Assembly (NCBI GenBank): GCA_016840165.1
Contig: JAEOSU010000070.1
Location: forward strand, 1-64,000
Direction of reading: 5' to 3'
Source: Promethearchaeota archaeon
Lineage (GTDB): Archaea > Asgardarchaeota > Lokiarchaeia > Sigyniarchaeales > SOKP01
Length of the DNA stretch: 64,000 nt
Notes under the pieces: generated by a model
The model's database searches: none
What the model was told of the DNA's origin: nothing
Seen by the model: the letters and a program-made list of their open reading frames with translations, nothing else
In this document: positions 17,034 through 28,344 of the stretch, piece by piece
Layout of the letters: each line of letters opens with the position of its first letter
Position numbering within the stretch: the first letter of the stretch is position 1
Translations under genes and position numbers: made by a program

Positions 17034-18290
17034 TTATCCTTCAATTATAATCAATCGTTCGATCTTATCAACGATTTTTAGCGCTCCAAAATAAGAGTCT
17101 GCAAATGAACTCCCAGTATATAACACCGTACATACTGGTTCGTTTTTCCAAATTTCATGATCAGGGTTAAATTTATCATAGACGTGATCAATTTTATTGA
17201 TTTCTTTTATTATTGCACCTTTAATAGCTTGTGGTGCAAAATAAACTAATTTCGTGGCAAATTGAGGTTTCTTAATGCTATCAAGTGAAGTTTCTATCTC
17301 TTGCCATTTATCCTTAGAAAAGGATTGAATATGTAAATCTAATAAATTAATTCTAAGTGCCCTTTCTGAAACTCTAAGGGATCCGGGAATTCTAGGATTG
17401 ATTTCCATTAAGAAGGGATAATGATTTTTTAATACATAATCAAAACCGTTTATTCCCCGTAAATTAAGAGTTTTAGTAAGAAAGATTGAAATTTCTGCGA
17501 TAACATCATTATCTTCTTGTAATAGATTGGCAGGAACTATATTACCGCAGTAAATGAACTCTTTCGGGGCATGAAGAAACCTCTCCCCTATTATTTGACG
17601 GTTGATTGAAATTACCTTAGCATTAACACCATCAGAAATCACAGTGCAACTTATAGGTATGCCATCAATATATTCTTGAACGATCCATTGTTTAGGGTTG
17701 AATTCTTTCATTCCCAGTTTTTGTTTAAGAAAGATATATTTCTGATATGATTCAATTTTATAAACGTTAACTCCTCCCGAGCTCTGCTTCTTTTTTAAGA
17801 TTACAGGGAAATGTAATTCAGGATTCTGAAAGTTAAATTGATTAGCCTCTATACTAATAGGATGCTTGAATTTATTTTTGTCCAATAATTTATATAACAG
17901 TCGAATATCTCTGGCCTTTTTGAGAGTTTCGATATCATTATTTAAACTTTGTATTGTGTATTTTTGATCTTTCAGCTTCTGATAGAAGTGTATTCTCTCA
18001 TCAAAAGCATCATCTAAACCACTTCCAATAATAAGGTATTCTATATGAGGATATTTATCTAATAAGGTTAATGAAAGTTTTAATAAATAACGATGATATA
18101 TTCCCTTCATTATTTCATAATTTGCACCAAATTCTTGACTAACAATTAGAGAATCTTCTACATAGGGATATAAATCCTCATCTCCAAAAAAATCAACCGT
18201 GAAAACGCGATATCCCGCTAAATGTAGAGAAGTAGCTAATGGCCTAGTGTTAAAACCAACAACTAGAACAGAATTCTTATTTTTTCTCAT
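17034..18290 (-). CDS. ATP-grasp enzyme of the COG2232 type
   Basis: A 418-residue protein with an N-terminal Rossmann-like domain (NSVLVVGFNTRPLATSLHLA), a central ATP-grasp region with the nucleotide-binding lysine pattern PVILKKKQSSGGVNVYKI, and the metal-binding segment FLMEINPRIPGSLRVSE. The pattern matches archaeal predicted carboxylate-amine ligases grouped as COG2232, relatives of biotin carboxylase. The acid and amine substrates are unknown. It begins 31 bases after the stop of the AAA+/VWA gene on the same strand, so the two are probably co-transcribed. This context suggests a cofactor- or peptide-modification step, but that is inference. Confidence 0.8.
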   Translation of the reverse strand: MRKNKNSVLVVGFNTRPLATSLHLAGYRVFTVDFFGDEDLYPYVEDSLIVSQEFGANYEIMKGIYHRYLLKLSLTLLDKYPHIEYLIIGSGLDDAFDERIHFYQKLKDQKYTIQSLNNDIETLKKARDIRLLYKLLDKNKFKHPISIEANQFNFQNPELHFPVILKKKQSSGGVNVYKIESYQKYIFLKQKLGMKEFNPKQWIVQEYIDGIPISCTVISDGVNAKVISINRQIIGERFLHAPKEFIYCGNIVPANLLQEDNDVIAEISIFLTKTLNLRGINGFDYVLKNHYPFLMEINPRIPGSLRVSERALRINLLDLHIQSFSKDKWQEIETSLDSIKKPQFATKLVYFAPQAIKGAIIKEINKIDHVYDKFNPDHEIWKNEPVCTVLYTGSSFADSYFGALKIVDKIERLIIIEG

Positions 18291-18321
18291 TTGGATAATA
18301 AGAGTAATCCAATAAGAGATA

Positions 18322-20529
18322 TTAGAGTATCTTTTTTAATTCCAAAATAAGATTCTTAGGATTTATTCTATCAAATTGAAATATTTCTGCCTTGCCATAT
18401 TCTTTGAAGTTCTCCTTTATCTCGTTAGCCGCAAATGTATTCACGCCCAATGATTTCGTCGCATAGCTCTTTTTTGGCTCTAAAACCACGAGATGAACCC
18501 CTTTTCTTGAGAGCGTTTTAGTTAATTCTTTCAGTTCATTGATTATCACATCATAATCACTCTGAACTTGTGCGATCAGGTCGGGGTATTTTACTGAGAT
18601 ATTTGCTCCACAATCTGAGCAGACAAAAATAACAGGAATCACATTTCTATTTTTTAATTTTTCAGCATTGATTAATTTGAGAGATTTTGTAAGTGCTGCA
18701 GCCATTGGAGTATAAGATTTGCCTTCAATGTTCTTTACTTTATTTGCGGCAGTTTTAAAATAAACTGTTGGTTTCTGGAGAACCACCGCTTCTTTCCCCC
18801 GAAAAATAATCAAACTAATCTTATCTTTTTTTCTATAACCTTCTTTCTGGAGGGATAAAATTACATCGGTCATTTGTTTTATTACATAATACATTGAAGC
18901 AGAGCTATCTAAAACAAAAAATAAGACTAAGGGGGCTCGATATTCATATATTTTGTCCATTAAATCATATTTGTCAAACCTTATAGGAAATTCAATATCG
19001 GTTTGATTGTAAATTGTATTTTTTAAATAATTTCTGATAGTTGCATCTAATGCTATACTTTTTGGTCTATTTCGTGGAGTTCGATAAGCAACATAATGCC
19101 CTTTTTGAGTTGACGCTATCTTTATTCTTCTACCAATACCTCTCCCACCATAATTAGAAACCTTCCGATCTTTTCTAATATTATCTAAAATGGAAGTCAT
19201 CTTTTTTTCCATCTTGTATATTAATGGCATAGCGTCAATTTCATAATCTAAGAAATTAAATAACTCTTCATTATTAGGAATTTCTTTTACTTTCCAACCT
19301 CCGGCTGGCGATGGGCTTCTCTTTTTATTATCAGGGAATTTTGGTGGTGGTAATTTCTGTTCTTTGGTTTCGGGTACATCCACCTTTTTTGGATCTACAG
19401 ACTGCCTTTTAAATTCTTTCTGTGGTGCATCATCATATTTTAATGGACCCTCTGTATCTTTATTTGGTTTGTAAGTATTGGTATCCTCATAGGCTTTCTG
19501 GATCTTTCCATATACCTCAACGATTTTAGCTTTTACCTCTTCAGGGGTCATTTCATAATGTAGACTTTGAATTCGATGTTCAAACACTAGGTCCATGGCA
19601 GCATTCAGATCATCTTCATTAACTCGTTTTCTTCCATTAAATGCAGCATGAGCACGGGCACAACGAATAAAAGTGATATCTGCCCTTTGAGAAAAAATAT
19701 CTAATTCATTGACTAGTCTAGAGACAAATTCATACACTGTTGATGGTATTTGGACTTCTTTTAGAATTTTGCGGGCGTTAACGATTTTTTTACGTAATTC
19801 CTCTTGCTCTTTTTCATAGTTTTTATAGAATTCTTTAGGATTATCATCAAATTCAATTACTCTTTTTGAAATTTCCGCTCGAAGCTTTGCATCGCGGGGC
19901 GCTTTAATTTTTACCTCCAAACCTAGTCGATCTGCGATCTGTGGTCTTAATTCCCCCTCTTCAGGATTCATTGAACCGACCAAAACGAATCGAGAGGGGT
20001 GAGATACTGAAATTCCTTCTCGCTCGATAATGTTAACTCCAGAGGCAGCAGAATCCAACAATACATCAACAATATGATCTTGTAATAAATTTATTTCATC
20101 AACATATAAGATACCTCTGTGGGCTTTAGCGAGCAATCCAGGATGAAGACTGCGGATACCTTCAGTAAGAACTTTATCTATGGATAATGAGCCAGTAACC
20201 ATATCTTCAGTAGCCCCCAACGGCATATCAGCAATACGCATATTGCGTTTTTCTATTTCAAGTTTACCAGATGCTAATCTTGTTTTACAGTCTTCACATA
20301 AAAGCTCAGGATCCGCTTTTGGATCACAAGAAAAGGCACATCCTTGAACAACTTCGATTTCAGGCATAACATCTACTAAAGATCTAACAGCTGTTGATTT
20401 TCCCGTACCTTGTTGGCCAGTAAGTAGTATACCTCCAATCTGAGGATCCGTAACGTTTAGAATCAACCCCAATTTCATTTTATCTTGTCCGAGTATGGCA
20501 GTAAAGGGGTAATTAATATTTTTAAACAT
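18322..20529 (-). CDS. AAA+ ATPase fused to a VWA domain, magnesium-chelatase-like
   Basis: A 735-residue fusion. Residues about 1-330 are a ChlI/BchI-type AAA+ module: Walker A GQQGTGKST at 38-46, Walker B GILYVDEINLL, sensor LVGSMNPEEGELRPQIADR, and a cysteine cluster in the early insertion (GCAFSCDPKADPELLCEDC). Residues about 370-480 form a charged, proline-rich linker. Residues about 530-735 form a von Willebrand A domain with a complete MIDAS start, LDSSASM (about residue 541). This I-D fusion architecture is known for chelatase-like proteins that insert Mg, Co or Ni into tetrapyrroles. No tetrapyrrole gene is in the window, so the metal and substrate are unknown. Confidence 0.88.
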   Translation of the reverse strand: MFKNINYPFTAILGQDKMKLGLILNVTDPQIGGILLTGQQGTGKSTAVRSLVDVMPEIEVVQGCAFSCDPKADPELLCEDCKTRLASGKLEIEKRNMRIADMPLGATEDMVTGSLSIDKVLTEGIRSLHPGLLAKAHRGILYVDEINLLQDHIVDVLLDSAASGVNIIEREGISVSHPSRFVLVGSMNPEEGELRPQIADRLGLEVKIKAPRDAKLRAEISKRVIEFDDNPKEFYKNYEKEQEELRKKIVNARKILKEVQIPSTVYEFVSRLVNELDIFSQRADITFIRCARAHAAFNGRKRVNEDDLNAAMDLVFEHRIQSLHYEMTPEEVKAKIVEVYGKIQKAYEDTNTYKPNKDTEGPLKYDDAPQKEFKRQSVDPKKVDVPETKEQKLPPPKFPDNKKRSPSPAGGWKVKEIPNNEELFNFLDYEIDAMPLIYKMEKKMTSILDNIRKDRKVSNYGGRGIGRRIKIASTQKGHYVAYRTPRNRPKSIALDATIRNYLKNTIYNQTDIEFPIRFDKYDLMDKIYEYRAPLVLFFVLDSSASMYYVIKQMTDVILSLQKEGYRKKDKISLIIFRGKEAVVLQKPTVYFKTAANKVKNIEGKSYTPMAAALTKSLKLINAEKLKNRNVIPVIFVCSDCGANISVKYPDLIAQVQSDYDVIINELKELTKTLSRKGVHLVVLEPKKSYATKSLGVNTFAANEIKENFKEYGKAEIFQFDRINPKNLILELKKIL

Positions 20530-21866: not shown

Positions 21867-22487
21867 GTGAGTGAAAAAGGATTTGAACCATTAAGTAGCC
21901 AACTAGGTATTGCGGGAACATCCTATCGAATTCAATTAGGACTTATCAATGGTCGATGGGCTTCACGATTATTAAAGGGAAATAATGTAATCGATTCTTA
22001 TATTTATAAGGATGAAGATGTTCAAGGAGGGTATCCAAATCAAAATATAATAGTTGGATGGGTACTAAGAACTGTTGCCATTCCTAATATCAATCCTCAT
22101 CAAGTTATGAAGACTACTCAAGCTTTAGTAAAGCAAGCGATTGATAAAAAAGAACAGAAGAAAGTAATGGCCCCAATTTCGGAAACTAAGGAGGTTGAAT
22201 TAGAGAAAGTCCCAGAAAGCCAGCTAAAAAGAGTTCAGACCAAAGGTTGGGTAAAAGAGGAGGGAATGAAGTCAATACAAGAACTTGAGGAGGATAAACG
22301 TGAAGCATTCAGAGAAAGAATGAAATATAAACATGAAGAGGAAGCAGTAAGAAAGGGTGAGACTATACATATTACCCGAGACTTACCTTCAATTCCTAAA
22401 GCGGGAGATCAAACTTCCAAAAGTTGCCCGAGTTGTGGTAAGGATTTAGATTTTAAATATTGTCCCTATTGCGGACAAAAATTATAA
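21867..22487 (+). CDS. unknown N-terminal domain with C-terminal zinc ribbon
   Basis: A 206-residue protein starting with GTG (an ATG two bases earlier meets TGA at once). Residues about 10-85 form a compact mixed domain (TSYRIQLGLINGRWASRLL ... IIVGWVLRTVAIPN) that I do not recognise. A charged helical linker follows (about 95-175), then a zinc ribbon at the C-terminus with CPSCG and CPYCGQK (four Cys). It lies between divergent JAMM genes, about 180 bases from one and 205 from the next. The shared neighbourhood suggests it works with them, but this is inference. A role as adaptor or substrate receptor would fit; nothing in the sequence proves it. Confidence 0.7.
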   Translation: MSEKGFEPLSSQLGIAGTSYRIQLGLINGRWASRLLKGNNVIDSYIYKDEDVQGGYPNQNIIVGWVLRTVAIPNINPHQVMKTTQALVKQAIDKKEQKKVMAPISETKEVELEKVPESQLKRVQTKGWVKEEGMKSIQELEEDKREAFRERMKYKHEEEAVRKGETIHITRDLPSIPKAGDQTSKSCPSCGKDLDFKYCPYCGQKL

Positions 22488-22692: not shown

Positions 22693-24192
22693 ATGAGTGA
22701 TTTAATCATGGGGAAGTATGTTGATGAAAGCATAGTGATTGTTAAACCATTGGCTTATTATAAAATGTTAGTTCATATACTTCGATTTGGTTCGAAAACG
22801 AGGGATCATAGGCAATTTAAGGAAGTAATCGGGATGTTAGTGGGTCATTTAGAAGGGGAAGATAAAATTAAAGATGTTATAATTGAGGATGTAGTACCAA
22901 TTTCACATGGTGGGTCGATAGAAGTAAAATTCACAGAAGAACAATTAGGTGCTTTCGGAGAAATAGATTTACAAATCTTTAAAGAACACGGTTCAAAAAA
23001 TTGGTTCACTGTGGGTTGGTATCATTCACATCCAGGATTAAATATATTTTTCTCCTCAACTGACGTTTATAATCAACTTTTTTGGCAGGATAGGAATCCT
23101 AGTGGCGTTGGATTGGTATTTGATCATACCTATTTAGAACGTGAAGGAGATTTAGGATTTCGCGCCTTTCGATTAGATGATCCTTCAAAGGGCCTTAATT
23201 CGGATTATCATGAAGTTAAATCGAAAGTCGAACTCCCCTCCGATGATTCATTTTATTCAAATGTAATAGATTTAATTAATAACATTCAGTTGAACCTACC
23301 ACCATTATATGAATTAAATGAAACTACAGATTTATTTAGCGATGTATTTATTCCGGATAAAAAGGACTTAGAGATCCAAAAACCAGAATTACATCTCCAA
23401 GAATTGATATCTTCTTTGAAAACAGGCCTAAACTCCTTTTTAGATCTTTCTATGATTCCATTAATTACTTCTCTAAATGAATGGAGTCAAAATATTACTA
23501 GTAAAACTTATTATAATAATACCCAAATTCGAAACGACCTAATTGAATTGAAGGATAATCTCTCAATAAGTTTAAAGGAAGTACAAAAATCATTCAATTT
23601 CAATTTGCAGGATAATTTAAAGAAACTAGATGACTATATTTCTGATACATTTGATGTATTTGAAGAGGAACAAGATAATATTAAGCAAATTTATGAGGAG
23701 TTTAAAAGTAAAGTAAATCAAGAGACAGAAACTCTATTTAATGAAAAAATAAAGTTTTCAGTGGAACAAATCAATTTTCTATTTGAAAACTGCAGAAAGT
23801 TGATAGCAGATATGGATACAGTGAATATTAATTGTATTGAAAGCCTAAAAAAGAGTAATGAAATAACGGAAAATTTATCTAAAATCGTCATGCCCTCAGA
23901 AAAAAGGATCTTCAGCAAATTAGAAGAAGATAAAAACAAAATAATAGATAACTTCAAGAAAAAATCTGCTAATCTGGAAAACAATATCACGAATATGAAT
24001 AAAGAAACAAAAAAGATTTTATCTAATCTTAAAGCAGCTATTTTAGTTCTTGAAGGTTCAAAAGAACCTATTTTTAGTAAGATTGAGAAATTAGAAAGTG
24101 AAAAGAAAAATTTGCATTCAAATATTAAAGAACTAAAAAGTGAAAAACAAGAATTATTAAGTCAAATTAAAGATTTAAAGAAAGGAGGATAA
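22693..24192 (+). CDS. MPN+ (JAMM) protein with long C-terminal coiled coil
   Basis: A 499-residue protein. Residues about 15-180 are an MPN domain with the full JAMM set: E44 in FKEVIGMLVG, H111 and H113 in GWYHSHPG, S121 and D124. The motif GWYHSHPG is nearly identical to that of eukaryotic Rpn11 and CSN5. Residues about 225-499 are a long, almost continuous coiled coil ending in SEKQELLSQIKDLKKGG. The next gene starts six bases after the stop and encodes a full-length paralogue lacking the catalytic Glu. The two products are therefore likely to form an active/pseudo-enzyme heterodimer. The predicted activity is metal-dependent isopeptide cleavage; the substrate is unknown. Confidence 0.88.
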   Translation: MSDLIMGKYVDESIVIVKPLAYYKMLVHILRFGSKTRDHRQFKEVIGMLVGHLEGEDKIKDVIIEDVVPISHGGSIEVKFTEEQLGAFGEIDLQIFKEHGSKNWFTVGWYHSHPGLNIFFSSTDVYNQLFWQDRNPSGVGLVFDHTYLEREGDLGFRAFRLDDPSKGLNSDYHEVKSKVELPSDDSFYSNVIDLINNIQLNLPPLYELNETTDLFSDVFIPDKKDLEIQKPELHLQELISSLKTGLNSFLDLSMIPLITSLNEWSQNITSKTYYNNTQIRNDLIELKDNLSISLKEVQKSFNFNLQDNLKKLDDYISDTFDVFEEEQDNIKQIYEEFKSKVNQETETLFNEKIKFSVEQINFLFENCRKLIADMDTVNINCIESLKKSNEITENLSKIVMPSEKRIFSKLEEDKNKIIDNFKKKSANLENNITNMNKETKKILSNLKAAILVLEGSKEPIFSKIEKLESEKKNLHSNIKELKSEKQELLSQIKDLKKGG

Positions 24193-24198
24193 AGGTTA

Positions 24199-25602
24199 AT
24201 GCCAAAAAACTCGAAGAATTCTACTCAAACTGATAGCAAAGATAAGATAATCGAAAGTAAATCTGAAGGTAGTGTAAACATTCAATATGAAGCATTTAGG
24301 AAAATGATAACTCATACTCTCCGATTTGCTAATGAATCAAAGGAGGAAGATCAACAAGTATTAGGTTTGTGCATTGGTGAGTATTTCAAAGAAAATAAAA
24401 ATTATATTGTTAAGGATGTTATTCCGATTTGTCATGGTGATGCTGTTGAACTTGGATTTTCTAAAGAGATTCATGAGACTATCGAAGAAATTAAATCCCA
24501 ATATTCTGAATCTATTAATTCTATAATTGGTTGGTATCACTCCCATCTGGGATACGGACTATATTTTTCAAATTCGGATAAAGTGAATAACCTCAATTTC
24601 CAAAACTCAGAAAACATTTATGGATTTGGAATTGTTATAGAACAAACATTACTTAATGAGGATCAGAGTTTTGGAGTAGCAGTATTTCGGCTTAAAGACT
24701 TTAATAAAGGTTCTGAAAATGACTATATTAAGGTAGAATTTAATATAGAACCCCCAAATTCCATGGAATTTTTTAAGTGGGTAAAACAATTAGTTGAATC
24801 AACTCAAAGCAAAAGTTCTCAGATCATTTATGAATTTAATGAAGTACAAAAACCATCTCCCGAAAATCTTCAAAAAATTCCTACACTCCCACAAGAAGAG
24901 ACGGAATCTGAAGTAAAAGAAGAACTTTCTTTGCTCTATGGAGTTGATGAGGGTATGGAAAAATTAAAAGATTCTTTTCTCAAATTATATGAAATACAGT
25001 TGACTTCATGGATGAGTGATGTTTCTAATGGGGTTTTAATTGGTTCTGAATATATTAGGAGCTCTATTAACAATATCAAAACAACTTTAACTTCAGGACT
25101 GGAAGATGCTCAACGGATATTTGATAAAAGTTTTTCTGATATTTCGAATCTTTTCATGAAGAATATACGAGGAAGCGTCGATATACGGTTAGAAAATCAA
25201 ATTGAATTGAAAGAGAATATTAAAGCAATTAATGAGGAACAATTAAATAACTTATTCGCTCGTTTAGAAAAGGAAATACGCGATGTGACGAATAATTTCG
25301 AGGAAAAAATAACAAATATTAAAAAAGAATTGGAAAAGATTGCTCTAAATAATAATTCTATTCAACAATCTTTAATTCAAACAAATGATATATTAAGTAC
25401 CGTTTATGAAGAGACCGATAAATTATCAGATAACATCATCCAACATATAGAAAATTCAAGTAAATCATTCGAATCAAAGTTATTGAATGAATTAGAAGAT
25501 TTCTCTAGAAATATAACTCCAAATAAAGAAATTTACACTGAAATAGAAGACCTAATCGAGAGATTACAACGAGTGATTTCTGATTTACGCCAAGTAAAAT
25601 AA
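24199..25602 (+). CDS. MPN- (pseudo-JAMM) protein with long C-terminal coiled coil
   Basis: A 467-residue paralogue of the preceding gene product over its full length. The MPN domain (about 28-200) keeps H114, H116, S124 and D127 in GWYHSHLGYGLYFSNSD, but the catalytic Glu position is Q53 (QQVLGLCIG) and the Pro of HSHP is Leu117. Loss of the Glu should abolish catalysis even if zinc can still bind. Residues about 235-467 form a coiled coil resembling that of the partner (EYIRSSINNIKTTLTSGL). A Shine-Dalgarno AAAGGAGG lies within the end of the upstream gene, and the six-base spacing implies coupled expression. By analogy with Rpn8, CSN6 or KIAA0157 it is probably a structural partner. Confidence 0.87.
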   Translation: MPKNSKNSTQTDSKDKIIESKSEGSVNIQYEAFRKMITHTLRFANESKEEDQQVLGLCIGEYFKENKNYIVKDVIPICHGDAVELGFSKEIHETIEEIKSQYSESINSIIGWYHSHLGYGLYFSNSDKVNNLNFQNSENIYGFGIVIEQTLLNEDQSFGVAVFRLKDFNKGSENDYIKVEFNIEPPNSMEFFKWVKQLVESTQSKSSQIIYEFNEVQKPSPENLQKIPTLPQEETESEVKEELSLLYGVDEGMEKLKDSFLKLYEIQLTSWMSDVSNGVLIGSEYIRSSINNIKTTLTSGLEDAQRIFDKSFSDISNLFMKNIRGSVDIRLENQIELKENIKAINEEQLNNLFARLEKEIRDVTNNFEEKITNIKKELEKIALNNNSIQQSLIQTNDILSTVYEETDKLSDNIIQHIENSSKSFESKLLNELEDFSRNITPNKEIYTEIEDLIERLQRVISDLRQVK

Positions 25603-26025: not shown

Positions 26026-28344
26026 ATGAAAAAGTTAAACCTTTTATCAAAATTTAAAAATTCTTTAAAACCTCTTTTTAGAAAAATCATATTTAAAGAG
26101 ATCTATGTTGAGGGAAAAGAGCCACCTAAATCATTTGCTTTTGAAAAAGAATTTTTAGGCATCTATTGCATATTTTTATTCTATTCTTTCATTTTATTAC
26201 TTGGAATTAATTTTCCTGATAACTTATTTATTTATTTAATAACATTTGGGAATCCATTTGCTTTTGGAAATGCAATTGTAGCACTTTTTTTATGCCTTTC
26301 TTTATTATTTAGTAACGATAAAATAAGACTCTTCATTTTCGAAGGTCACACCGTATTAAAGCAAGTAATTTTATATGTCGGTATCACCACTGTTTTTTAT
26401 TTTGTATTTTTAAGTCTTTCCAGCCTCAATATTATGAGTTATCTTCTTTGTTTAGCAACATTCTGGCTTATATTATTAAGTACAAGATTTTTTATGTATT
26501 CTCGAAAATTTGCTACCAAAATTGAAGCTCAAGCTATAGAAAAGTATTCATCATTACGGCGAGCAGGGGCTTTTATCACCCCTTATTTTATTTTAGGCGT
26601 TTTAGTGGCATTAGCATTGATATATCGGAGTTTTTTAGTCTTTATATCGTTAGATCTATTTGCTTTATCTGATCCAGTCAGTGCGGTAAATATTTATATT
26701 ATTGAAATGCGTTTAATAATGCCTTTAATCTACTTTAGCCTAATACTCACTTTACTCTTCATTATATTTGAATTTGTATTCACAAGAAAGAAAGCAGAAA
26801 CAAAACGAGCGGGATTATATGATAACTTTACCTTTTCCCTCATTGTGTTATTTATCTTTTTCTTTCAGATCCTTCAAGTGACTATATTTTTATTTTTAAG
26901 CTCTGAAACCGTATCTGCTCTAAAAACTACAGTTGGTACAACAAGCTCACCTATATCGTATATTTTTATATTTGAATTTTTAATTTCTATGTTTTTTCTC
27001 TACCGCATTATTAAAAAGTTTGGACGATCAATTGGATGGCAACTATTATTCTTTAAGAGAGATGGATTGGTTCTTTTGATATTAGGTTGTGTATTTGCCC
27101 AAACGCTGAGCCGATTTTCTTTACAAACACAGATTCCAAATCAATCAATAACCATTTTGGGGAATTTCTTTATGGCAGATAAATATGTTGTTTCTATAAT
27201 TATGATCATCTTTCTTGGATTGACCCTACTAATTTACTATCTTAAACCTCATGAAACCTCAATGTTTATTCGATTACAAAAGGAAACGGTGGATAAAAAA
27301 GAAGAAAGCATGGATATAATCTATAAATTAATTAAAAGTGAGTATATTCGACGTGGAGATGCATATCCAATTGAAATTTTGGAAAGAGAATTGATTAAAG
27401 CGACTAAGTTACCGAAAAATGAGGTATATTCCTTACTGGATAAACTCTCAGATGAAAGCATTGATATTGTTTTAACCGAAAAGAAAAATGATTATGGTAT
27501 AAAACAGAAATTCATTGATTTTACATCAGTAACCGAGAAATTTGACAGCAAAACTGTTGCAGAAAGAAAAGCGAAGAATTTTTTATCTCAACGATTATAT
27601 AAAACAATTTCGAGCAAAAAAACTAAAGATTTGAAACTAAGTAGCAACATTAAATCGGAAAAAGCATCTGATCAATTTTTGAGCTCCTTAGCAACGGATA
27701 TATCAAAAAAACATAGAGATGAGCAAAAAATCAAATTAAAACAAAACAATACAGAAATCTCATTTATTAGAAAGGAGGTCCCTGAGTCATTAAAGCATTC
27801 AATATTAACTATACTTAAAAAGGAGTATATCTATCGTATTGAAAATAAAGAGAAATATCCTGATTTTACTTATCCCATATCAGAAATCGCCTCTACAGTC
27901 CAATTGGAAACAAGAATTAATCCAGGAGAATTATATCCTATCTTGGAAACCCTTAATCAAACTGATATAGAATTAAGATTACTAGATAATCCCAATGAAC
28001 CAGAAGATAAAATAATTGACTTTTATCCTATAGATGATGATTTAAATTATACTTTGTCAAGTTTTAGACCCAACCAATATTCTAAGATTAAGATAGAATT
28101 TATGAATAATTTTATTAAACATTTAAAACGCAAACGTGTTAAAGCAACTCTCTCTAAGATAAAGAAGAATATATCAAATGAAAATGAGGAACAGAAATAC
28201 TGGAATAAACTTTATCAAATTTTAATTAATTATTTTCCGAATTTCGAGGAAGTTCTCCAAAAAGAGAGAGAGGGTGGAGATATATCAAAAGTTCTTAAAA
28301 TATTCCCTCTCAAAGATATTGATGTATTCAATATTGAATCCTAA
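26026..28344 (+). CDS. membrane protein with two related cytosolic winged-helix-like domains
   Basis: A 772-residue protein. Residues about 45-415 carry roughly ten hydrophobic spans with no transporter signature. The cytosolic part from about 425 contains two similar units: 426-505 (IIYKLIKSEYIRRGDAYPI, then LPKNEVYSLLDKL, then KQKFIDF) and 586-670 (ILTILKKEYIYRI, then NPGELYPILETLNQT, then EDKIIDFYPI). Each has the helix-helix-wing order of a winged helix. The units are joined by a Lys-rich linker. This suggests a membrane-tethered regulator or a protein-interaction platform. I do not recognise a family. It is followed by an MFS transporter after about 105 bases. Confidence 0.7.
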   Translation: MKKLNLLSKFKNSLKPLFRKIIFKEIYVEGKEPPKSFAFEKEFLGIYCIFLFYSFILLLGINFPDNLFIYLITFGNPFAFGNAIVALFLCLSLLFSNDKIRLFIFEGHTVLKQVILYVGITTVFYFVFLSLSSLNIMSYLLCLATFWLILLSTRFFMYSRKFATKIEAQAIEKYSSLRRAGAFITPYFILGVLVALALIYRSFLVFISLDLFALSDPVSAVNIYIIEMRLIMPLIYFSLILTLLFIIFEFVFTRKKAETKRAGLYDNFTFSLIVLFIFFFQILQVTIFLFLSSETVSALKTTVGTTSSPISYIFIFEFLISMFFLYRIIKKFGRSIGWQLLFFKRDGLVLLILGCVFAQTLSRFSLQTQIPNQSITILGNFFMADKYVVSIIMIIFLGLTLLIYYLKPHETSMFIRLQKETVDKKEESMDIIYKLIKSEYIRRGDAYPIEILERELIKATKLPKNEVYSLLDKLSDESIDIVLTEKKNDYGIKQKFIDFTSVTEKFDSKTVAERKAKNFLSQRLYKTISSKKTKDLKLSSNIKSEKASDQFLSSLATDISKKHRDEQKIKLKQNNTEISFIRKEVPESLKHSILTILKKEYIYRIENKEKYPDFTYPISEIASTVQLETRINPGELYPILETLNQTDIELRLLDNPNEPEDKIIDFYPIDDDLNYTLSSFRPNQYSKIKIEFMNNFIKHLKRKRVKATLSKIKKNISNENEEQKYWNKLYQILINYFPNFEEVLQKEREGGDISKVLKIFPLKDIDVFNIES

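Follow-up and report, generated by a model that had tools for sequence, protein, structure and literature searches.

In eukaryotes, Rpn8 pairs with Rpn11, and Rpn11-Rpn8, CSN5-CSN6, and eIF3h-eIF3f are each a case in which an MPN+ protein (or one that was once MPN+) and an MPN- paralogue have been kept together. BRCC36-KIAA0157/Abraxas likewise combines an MPN+ enzyme with a pseudo-DUB; both have helical C-terminal extensions, the two helices from each chain joining in a coiled-coil bundle that packs against the MPN domains, and KIAA0157 activates BRCC36 and keeps it in its active form (PMC4579573). Archaeal MPN+ proteins include CsRpn11 of Caldiarchaeum subterraneum, which crystallised as a homodimer (PMC6043591), and the JAMM proteins of Asgard ubiquitin cassettes (here G000:C58, L248); unlike the pair described below, these are short, are encoded with ubiquitin, E1, and E2, and have no inactive partner. 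HvJAMM1 and the SAMP desampylases are archaeal JAMM isopeptidases of ubiquitin-like modifiers and are also unlike the pair, being single-domain and unpaired. According to Fuchs et al. (2018), an MPN+/MPN- arrangement was not known in archaea (PMC6043591), and no mention of an archaeal pair was found in the open-access text of the Asgard ubiquitin and ESCRT literature (PMC9192718, PMC10936438, PMC11291895, PMC12993045), which is not proof.

The window (the whole 64,000-nucleotide stretch of DNA that was analysed) belongs to a 3.6 Mb Asgard genome that is 99.7% complete. On its + strand, P1, the first gene of the pair (22693..24192), encodes 499 amino acids with an MPN+ domain (22735..23187, residues 15-165) and a long helical tail; P2, the second gene (24199..25602), encodes 467 amino acids with a degenerate, MPN- domain (24271..24723) and a long helical tail of its own. 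The closest named relatives are Lokiarchaeota MAGs (e.g., SDNW01000010, with a P1 identity of 84%). P1 is an archaeal MPN+ protein like CsRpn11 and the ubiquitin-cassette JAMM, and its MPN domain matches Rpn11 and CSN5 both by sequence and by fold. The best single PDB match of P1 was 6fjv (CsRpn11; E 4.8e-10), and Foldseek placed Rpn11, BRCC36, CSN5, and CsRpn11 as the solved structures nearest to its MPN domain. The score against the curated desampylase profile NF041370 was 18.4 bits, far below the cut-off of 130 bits.

The gene pair and its neighbors

The original prediction described two co-oriented adjacent genes, six bases apart, that encode full-length MPN paralogues, the first with an intact JAMM site and the second with Gln for the catalytic Glu and HSHL for HSHP, its His, Ser, and Asp being kept; all of these features were confirmed. 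P2 starts 6 nt past the P1 stop and lies in the same frame, and both proteins score above the 22.5-bit gathering cut-off of Pfam JAB1/MPN/Mov34 (JAB, PF01398), P1 with 52.5 bits and P2 with 39.4 bits. hhalign matched the P1-family profile to that of the P2 family across 422 columns, which take in the tails (E 3.6e-74); because this alignment runs end to end, P1 and P2 are tandem full-length paralogues. The JAMM pattern E - HxH - x7 - S - x2 - D is present in P1 as E44 (codon 22822-22824), H111 (23023-23025), H113 (23029-23031), which is followed by P114, S121 (23053-23055), and D124 (23062-23064), all on the + strand. In the window copy of P2 it is broken by Q53 (24355-24357) at the Glu position, and the rest of the site, also on the + strand, reads H114 (24538-24540)-S-H116 (24544-24546)-L117, S124 (24568-24570), and D127 (24577-24579).

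Searches were made class-wide (83 genomes) and phylum-wide (228 genomes). Most of the window's family has the pair, as do a small number of genomes from two related families; it was absent from the other Asgard classes in the phylum-wide search of 228 genomes, with no close match outside the class, and the best MPN matches in those classes were for the most part short, at about 200-330 residues. Sixty regions were retrieved, yielding 55 loci with both genes when the window is counted. A check proposed with the original prediction was whether the pair is always adjacent in Asgard genomes: P1 and P2 were linked in 55/55 loci, confined to Lokiarchaeia, with order and strand constant and an intergenic distance between -26 and +17 nt, and second-type genes without a neighboring first gene were seen at contig ends only. 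The loci come from many independent MAGs, including the chromosomes CP070805 and CP070831, which excludes a sequencing artefact. A phage origin was also considered and rejected, there being no PHROG match. No natural P1-P2 fusion was seen in the 55 loci; a stop separates the genes even where they lie in one frame. P1 and P2 have one common history: in a comparison of tree distances, the correlation between them was 0.97, and the partial correlation given P3, a nearby MPN+ gene, was 0.95, a value raised in part by the apparent replacement of P3 in some lineages. The lengths of P1 and P2 gave a rank correlation of -0.41, which offers no support for pairing. Directly ahead of one otherwise normal pair lies an additional, truncated MPN copy (L073:489-1100, G017:C177), which suggests a recent local duplication.

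Directly upstream of the pair is a gene (21867..22487, + strand) for a 206-aa protein with an N-terminal beta-beta-beta-alpha-alpha domain and a C-terminal zinc ribbon. The gene is found in 46 of the 54 other pair loci, at 54-88% identity to the window copy, and is probably the third member of the operon. The N-terminal domain was predicted at a pLDDT of about 90 and has a conserved LPSIPK-like motif; a fold search of the protein against solved structures (PDB) gave no match, the best E being 0.11. Distant relatives of this domain occur class-wide, including in genomes without the pair, and in one genome (G007) such a relative adjoins another MPN gene.

The third MPN+ gene, P3 (20738..21688, - strand), encodes 316 amino acids with an active-type motif and is divergent from the pair in the window and in 41/55 loci overall, usually about 1 kb off. 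Its tree does not track that of the pair, and P3 is probably a neighbor and not an obligate partner. The original prediction had overlooked both P3 and the zinc-ribbon gene. In several lineages the spacing from the JAMM Ser to the Asp of P3 is longer by one residue (SGFGD); this variant, together with the discordant tree, suggests replacement or exchange. Downstream of the pair, a 772-aa protein with hydrophobic, membrane-like stretches (26026..28344, + strand) recurs in 43/54 other loci on the same strand as the pair; it is a conserved neighbor, and its link to the pair is uncertain. On the - strand, positions 17034-20529 of the window hold an AAA+/VWA magnesium-chelatase-like gene and an ATP-grasp gene, conserved in 29/54 and 23/54 loci, respectively, these counts being limited by contig ends. 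Unlike the proteasome lid, COP9, and eIF3, the Lokiarchaeia pair has no PCI subunit that we could find beside it: P3 and the zinc-ribbon, 772-aa, AAA/VWA, and ATP-grasp proteins, the window neighbors scanned, gave no PCI match. No proteasome or ubiquitin gene adjoins the pair.

Loss of the catalytic site in P2

Conservation of the two sites is asymmetric. In P1, the five catalytic residues were all kept in 53/53 readable copies, whereas P2 had the full set in 17/55 and a broken site in 38/55. Both controls were intact: the JAMM residues of P3 were present in 38/38 readable copies, and the MPN proteins of other Asgard genomes were intact in 28/28, a count restricted to profile-found proteins, as further comparison proteins were fetched by the pattern GW[YF]HSHP, are biased toward intact sites, and were excluded. 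The P2 Glu is replaced by Gln (12/55), Ala, Asn, Asp, Lys, or Ser; its first His by Ile, Val, Leu, Ser, Asn, Cys, Thr, or Arg; its second His by Arg, Asn, or Ser; and its Asp by Thr, Glu, Ala, Gly, His, or Asn. In the original prediction, relatives whose second protein retains Glu were to count against the pair. Such relatives do exist, Glu being kept in 36/55 copies, but they show the repeated decay of an active ancestor and not the absence of a pair. Early P2 branches (L073, L086, and others) carry an intact site, which points to an ancestral P2 that was probably catalytic.

The P2 site was broken by at least 4-5 changes (the count from unordered parsimony); if a lost site is never fully restored, the number of losses rises to about 10. 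For the loss count, the catalytic residues were masked before the tree was built, and 11 independent losses resulted with restoration excluded; a careful tree without the longest rows gave 10, and 300 bootstrap trees gave 8-11. In this respect the Lokiarchaeia partner differs from those of Rpn11-Rpn8, CSN5-CSN6, and eIF3h-eIF3f, having lost catalysis many times and not once. The broken motif of L068 (SRPGW..DFTE) is that of L043, L045, L050, L057, and L058, a clade with which L068 does not group; gene conversion or an unresolved tree is possibly the reason.

P2 is under purifying selection and evolves somewhat faster than P1 (dN/dS 0.12-0.55 and 0.06-0.28, respectively). Recurrent loss of the catalytic site and this faster evolution are what might be seen if the P2 gene were a decaying duplicate without function, but dN/dS is 0.12-0.33 in the very lineages in which the site is broken, P2 is full length in every complete locus, and it is never apart from P1 except at contig ends. 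We regard functionless decay as scarcely credible, and a P2 pseudogene is contradicted by both dN/dS and retention. The pattern is one of recurrent pseudoenzyme evolution beside an invariant enzyme, and the evidence for it is unusually clear.

It might also be supposed that P2 is an independent binder of ubiquitin-like conjugates, a dead MPN domain encoded in the same operon as P1 and not a subunit of it. The 12 copies in which Glu became Gln all retain both His and Asp, so that the zinc ligands should stay and conjugates could be bound without being cut, and an operon by itself accounts for co-inheritance. However, many other P2 proteins have lost His, Asp, or both, which should remove the zinc; retained zinc or substrate binding is thus not a common constraint on the family. 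The colinear tails, which have one period, also suggest pairing, and we judge an independent binder to be unlikely.

Helical tails and the proposed complex

Each tail is predicted to be one helix, of about 208 residues in P1 (residues 247-454; 23431..24054, + strand) and about 217 residues in P2 (residues 249-465; 24943..25593, + strand); the two are colinear, and both have a hydrophobic period of about 3.64. The natural P1-P2 read-through frame was given to AlphaFold2 as a single chain, with 26 paired rows, and the model consisted of two MPN domains, each then followed by one uninterrupted helix (mean pLDDT 72, pTM 0.46). Over 54 sequences per family, the period came to 3.63-3.65 residues for P1 and P2 alike; two ordinary coiled-coil proteins from this genome gave 3.47-3.51, and their apolar face is narrower than that of the P1 and P2 tails. 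Coiled-coil tails had been predicted originally; the long helices are borne out by AlphaFold2, but a period of 3.64 is that of a hendecad and not the 3.5 of a heptad. The tails fit coils or bundles of the hendecad type, near-straight or right-handed, or else amphipathic helices that bind surfaces, and not a classical heptad coil. As single helices of about 210 residues they differ from Rpn11-Rpn8, CSN5-CSN6, and eIF3h-eIF3f, and the one very long helix per chain sets them apart from BRCC36-KIAA0157, to whose extensions no sequence relation was detected.

If the tails were amphipathic helices for lipid or membrane surfaces, like those of apolipoproteins or perilipins, the proteins would lie at membranes and tail pairing would be unneeded. 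The period and the apolar face, wider than in the heptad controls, are compatible with this, as is the presence of the hydrophobic neighbor gene in 43/54 loci. The tails are also weakly similar to apolipoproteins in Pfam and PDB, but the similarity is below the Pfam cut-off and probably compositional; hendecad periods, moreover, occur also in right-handed coiled coils and bundles, and the single uninterrupted helix of the AlphaFold2 model decides neither way. A membrane role for the tails is conceivable, although we think it rather unlikely.

Our preferred reading, to which we assign a probability of about two-thirds (0.66), is that P1 and P2 form one Lokiarchaeia-specific ubiquitin isopeptidase, an MPN+ enzyme with a dedicated MPN- partner. 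P1 would be the zinc-dependent catalytic subunit, and P2 a pseudo-deubiquitinase that pairs with P1 to support, position, or regulate it; the homologous hendecad helices of 210 residues would run side by side and either keep the heads joined or serve as their anchor. What one expects of an obligate enzyme/pseudo-enzyme complex is an invariant enzyme and a partner that loses its site while remaining intact, adjacent, and co-inherited. It is observed that the genes are paired, that their conservation is asymmetric, that both are under selection, that they were duplicated within the class, and that the tails are colinear; from this we infer a physical P1-P2 dimer, its isopeptidase activity, a substrate, and a role for the tails. 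Against a complex, the 17 P2 proteins with all five residues mean that the partner is not inactive everywhere, an operon might by itself account for adjacency and common history even if no complex formed, and neither a proteasome gene nor a ubiquitin gene adjoins the pair.

The probable substrate of the proposed isopeptidase would be a conjugate of ubiquitin-like proteins from the separate Ub-E1-E2-JAMM cassette of the genome. This cassette (L248, G000:C58:96000-110000) encodes three ubiquitin-like proteins, a ThiF-type E1, a UQ_con E2, and another JAMM; a substrate system thus exists in the same genome, unlinked to the pair. One of the ubiquitin-like proteins ends in TAG, one ends in TAGRLI, and one is fused to a membrane-like N-terminus; the cassette also includes a membrane-like protein bearing Cys pairs.

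Two kinds of PCI-like protein were noted elsewhere. In L187:5233-6891 (Helarchaeota JAHPZH010000001.1) and L186:5227-6891, TPR-like repeats and an active-type MPN domain are combined with a C-terminal winged helix; that of L187 passes the Pfam PCI cut-off (37.2 vs 22 bits), and the protein is a possible archaeal MPN-PCI fusion. Many Lokiarchaeia genomes encode conserved proteins, about 800 aa long, that each match PCI-type winged helices twice (e.g., G029:C9:653062-653961), in a phylum-wide PCI family search that is noisy because winged helices match PCI.

Origin of the pair

The original prediction took the pair as a sign that the heterodimer design predates eukaryotes, and the phylogeny argues otherwise. 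In an MPN tree of 89 rows, the P1 and P2 families formed a single group that also took in one other Lokiarchaeia protein (97% SH-aLRT), and this group sat in a Lokiarchaeia-class-only clade (92%), whereas yeast Rpn11, human CSN5, and yeast Rpn8 were placed elsewhere among Asgard proteins. Constraining P1 to group with Rpn11 and CSN5 was rejected (p-AU 0.032); constraining P2 to group with Rpn8 was not (p-AU 0.23), yeast Rpn8 being a very long branch. The P2-family profile scored 50.6 bits for Rpn11, 48 for CSN5, and 24.5 for Rpn8; by this measure, P2 is closer to Rpn11 and CSN5 than to Rpn8. A 2015 survey of proteasome regulators found archaeal proteins to be Rpn11-like only, with no archaeal Rpn8 (PMC4453063).

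Were the pair orthologous to Rpn11-Rpn8 and CSN5-CSN6, eukaryotes would have inherited the heterodimer. The MPN+/MPN- layout is alike, and the P2-Rpn8 grouping survives its test, albeit with that long branch. However, the rejected grouping of P1, the nesting of both genes inside a Lokiarchaeia-only MPN expansion, the profile scores of P2, the full JAMM site of early-branching P2 proteins, and the lack of a close match in the searched Asgard genomes outside the class all stand against it. Orthology is largely refuted and, in our judgment, very improbable, and descent of Rpn11-Rpn8 from the pair is not supported, given the same nesting, the rejected P1 grouping, and the P2 profile. The simplest reading is that the pair arose by tandem duplication within Lokiarchaeia, in parallel to Rpn11-Rpn8 and not as its ancestor. 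A helix-tailed MPN+ gene would have been duplicated in tandem; with the second copy tied to a structural role, the catalytic residues there would have been free to decay, about ten times over. The result is apparently an independent, Lokiarchaeia-restricted variant of MPN+/MPN- pairing. We give roughly even odds to a bolder version, a second independent invention, in archaea, of an enzyme/pseudo-enzyme DUB heterodimer, with right-handed (hendecad) stalks and a dedicated zinc-ribbon subunit, lid-like but without PCI; in this version, the partners of present-day species would span every step between full catalysis and its complete loss.

Asgard archaea are related to the ancestors of complex cells, and the pair is a caution that their eukaryote-like features should not all be taken as ancestral, since this one looks home-made: Lokiarchaeia seem to have invented the pairing of a working enzyme with a dead twin on their own. 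Why deubiquitinases repeatedly pair with dead copies has been studied mainly in eukaryotes, where each pairing is ancient and fixed. Lokiarchaeia are a prokaryotic lineage in which the enzyme copy is constant, site loss in the partner has happened about ten times, and intact and broken partners occur in related species, which would allow a direct test of what an inactive partner does.
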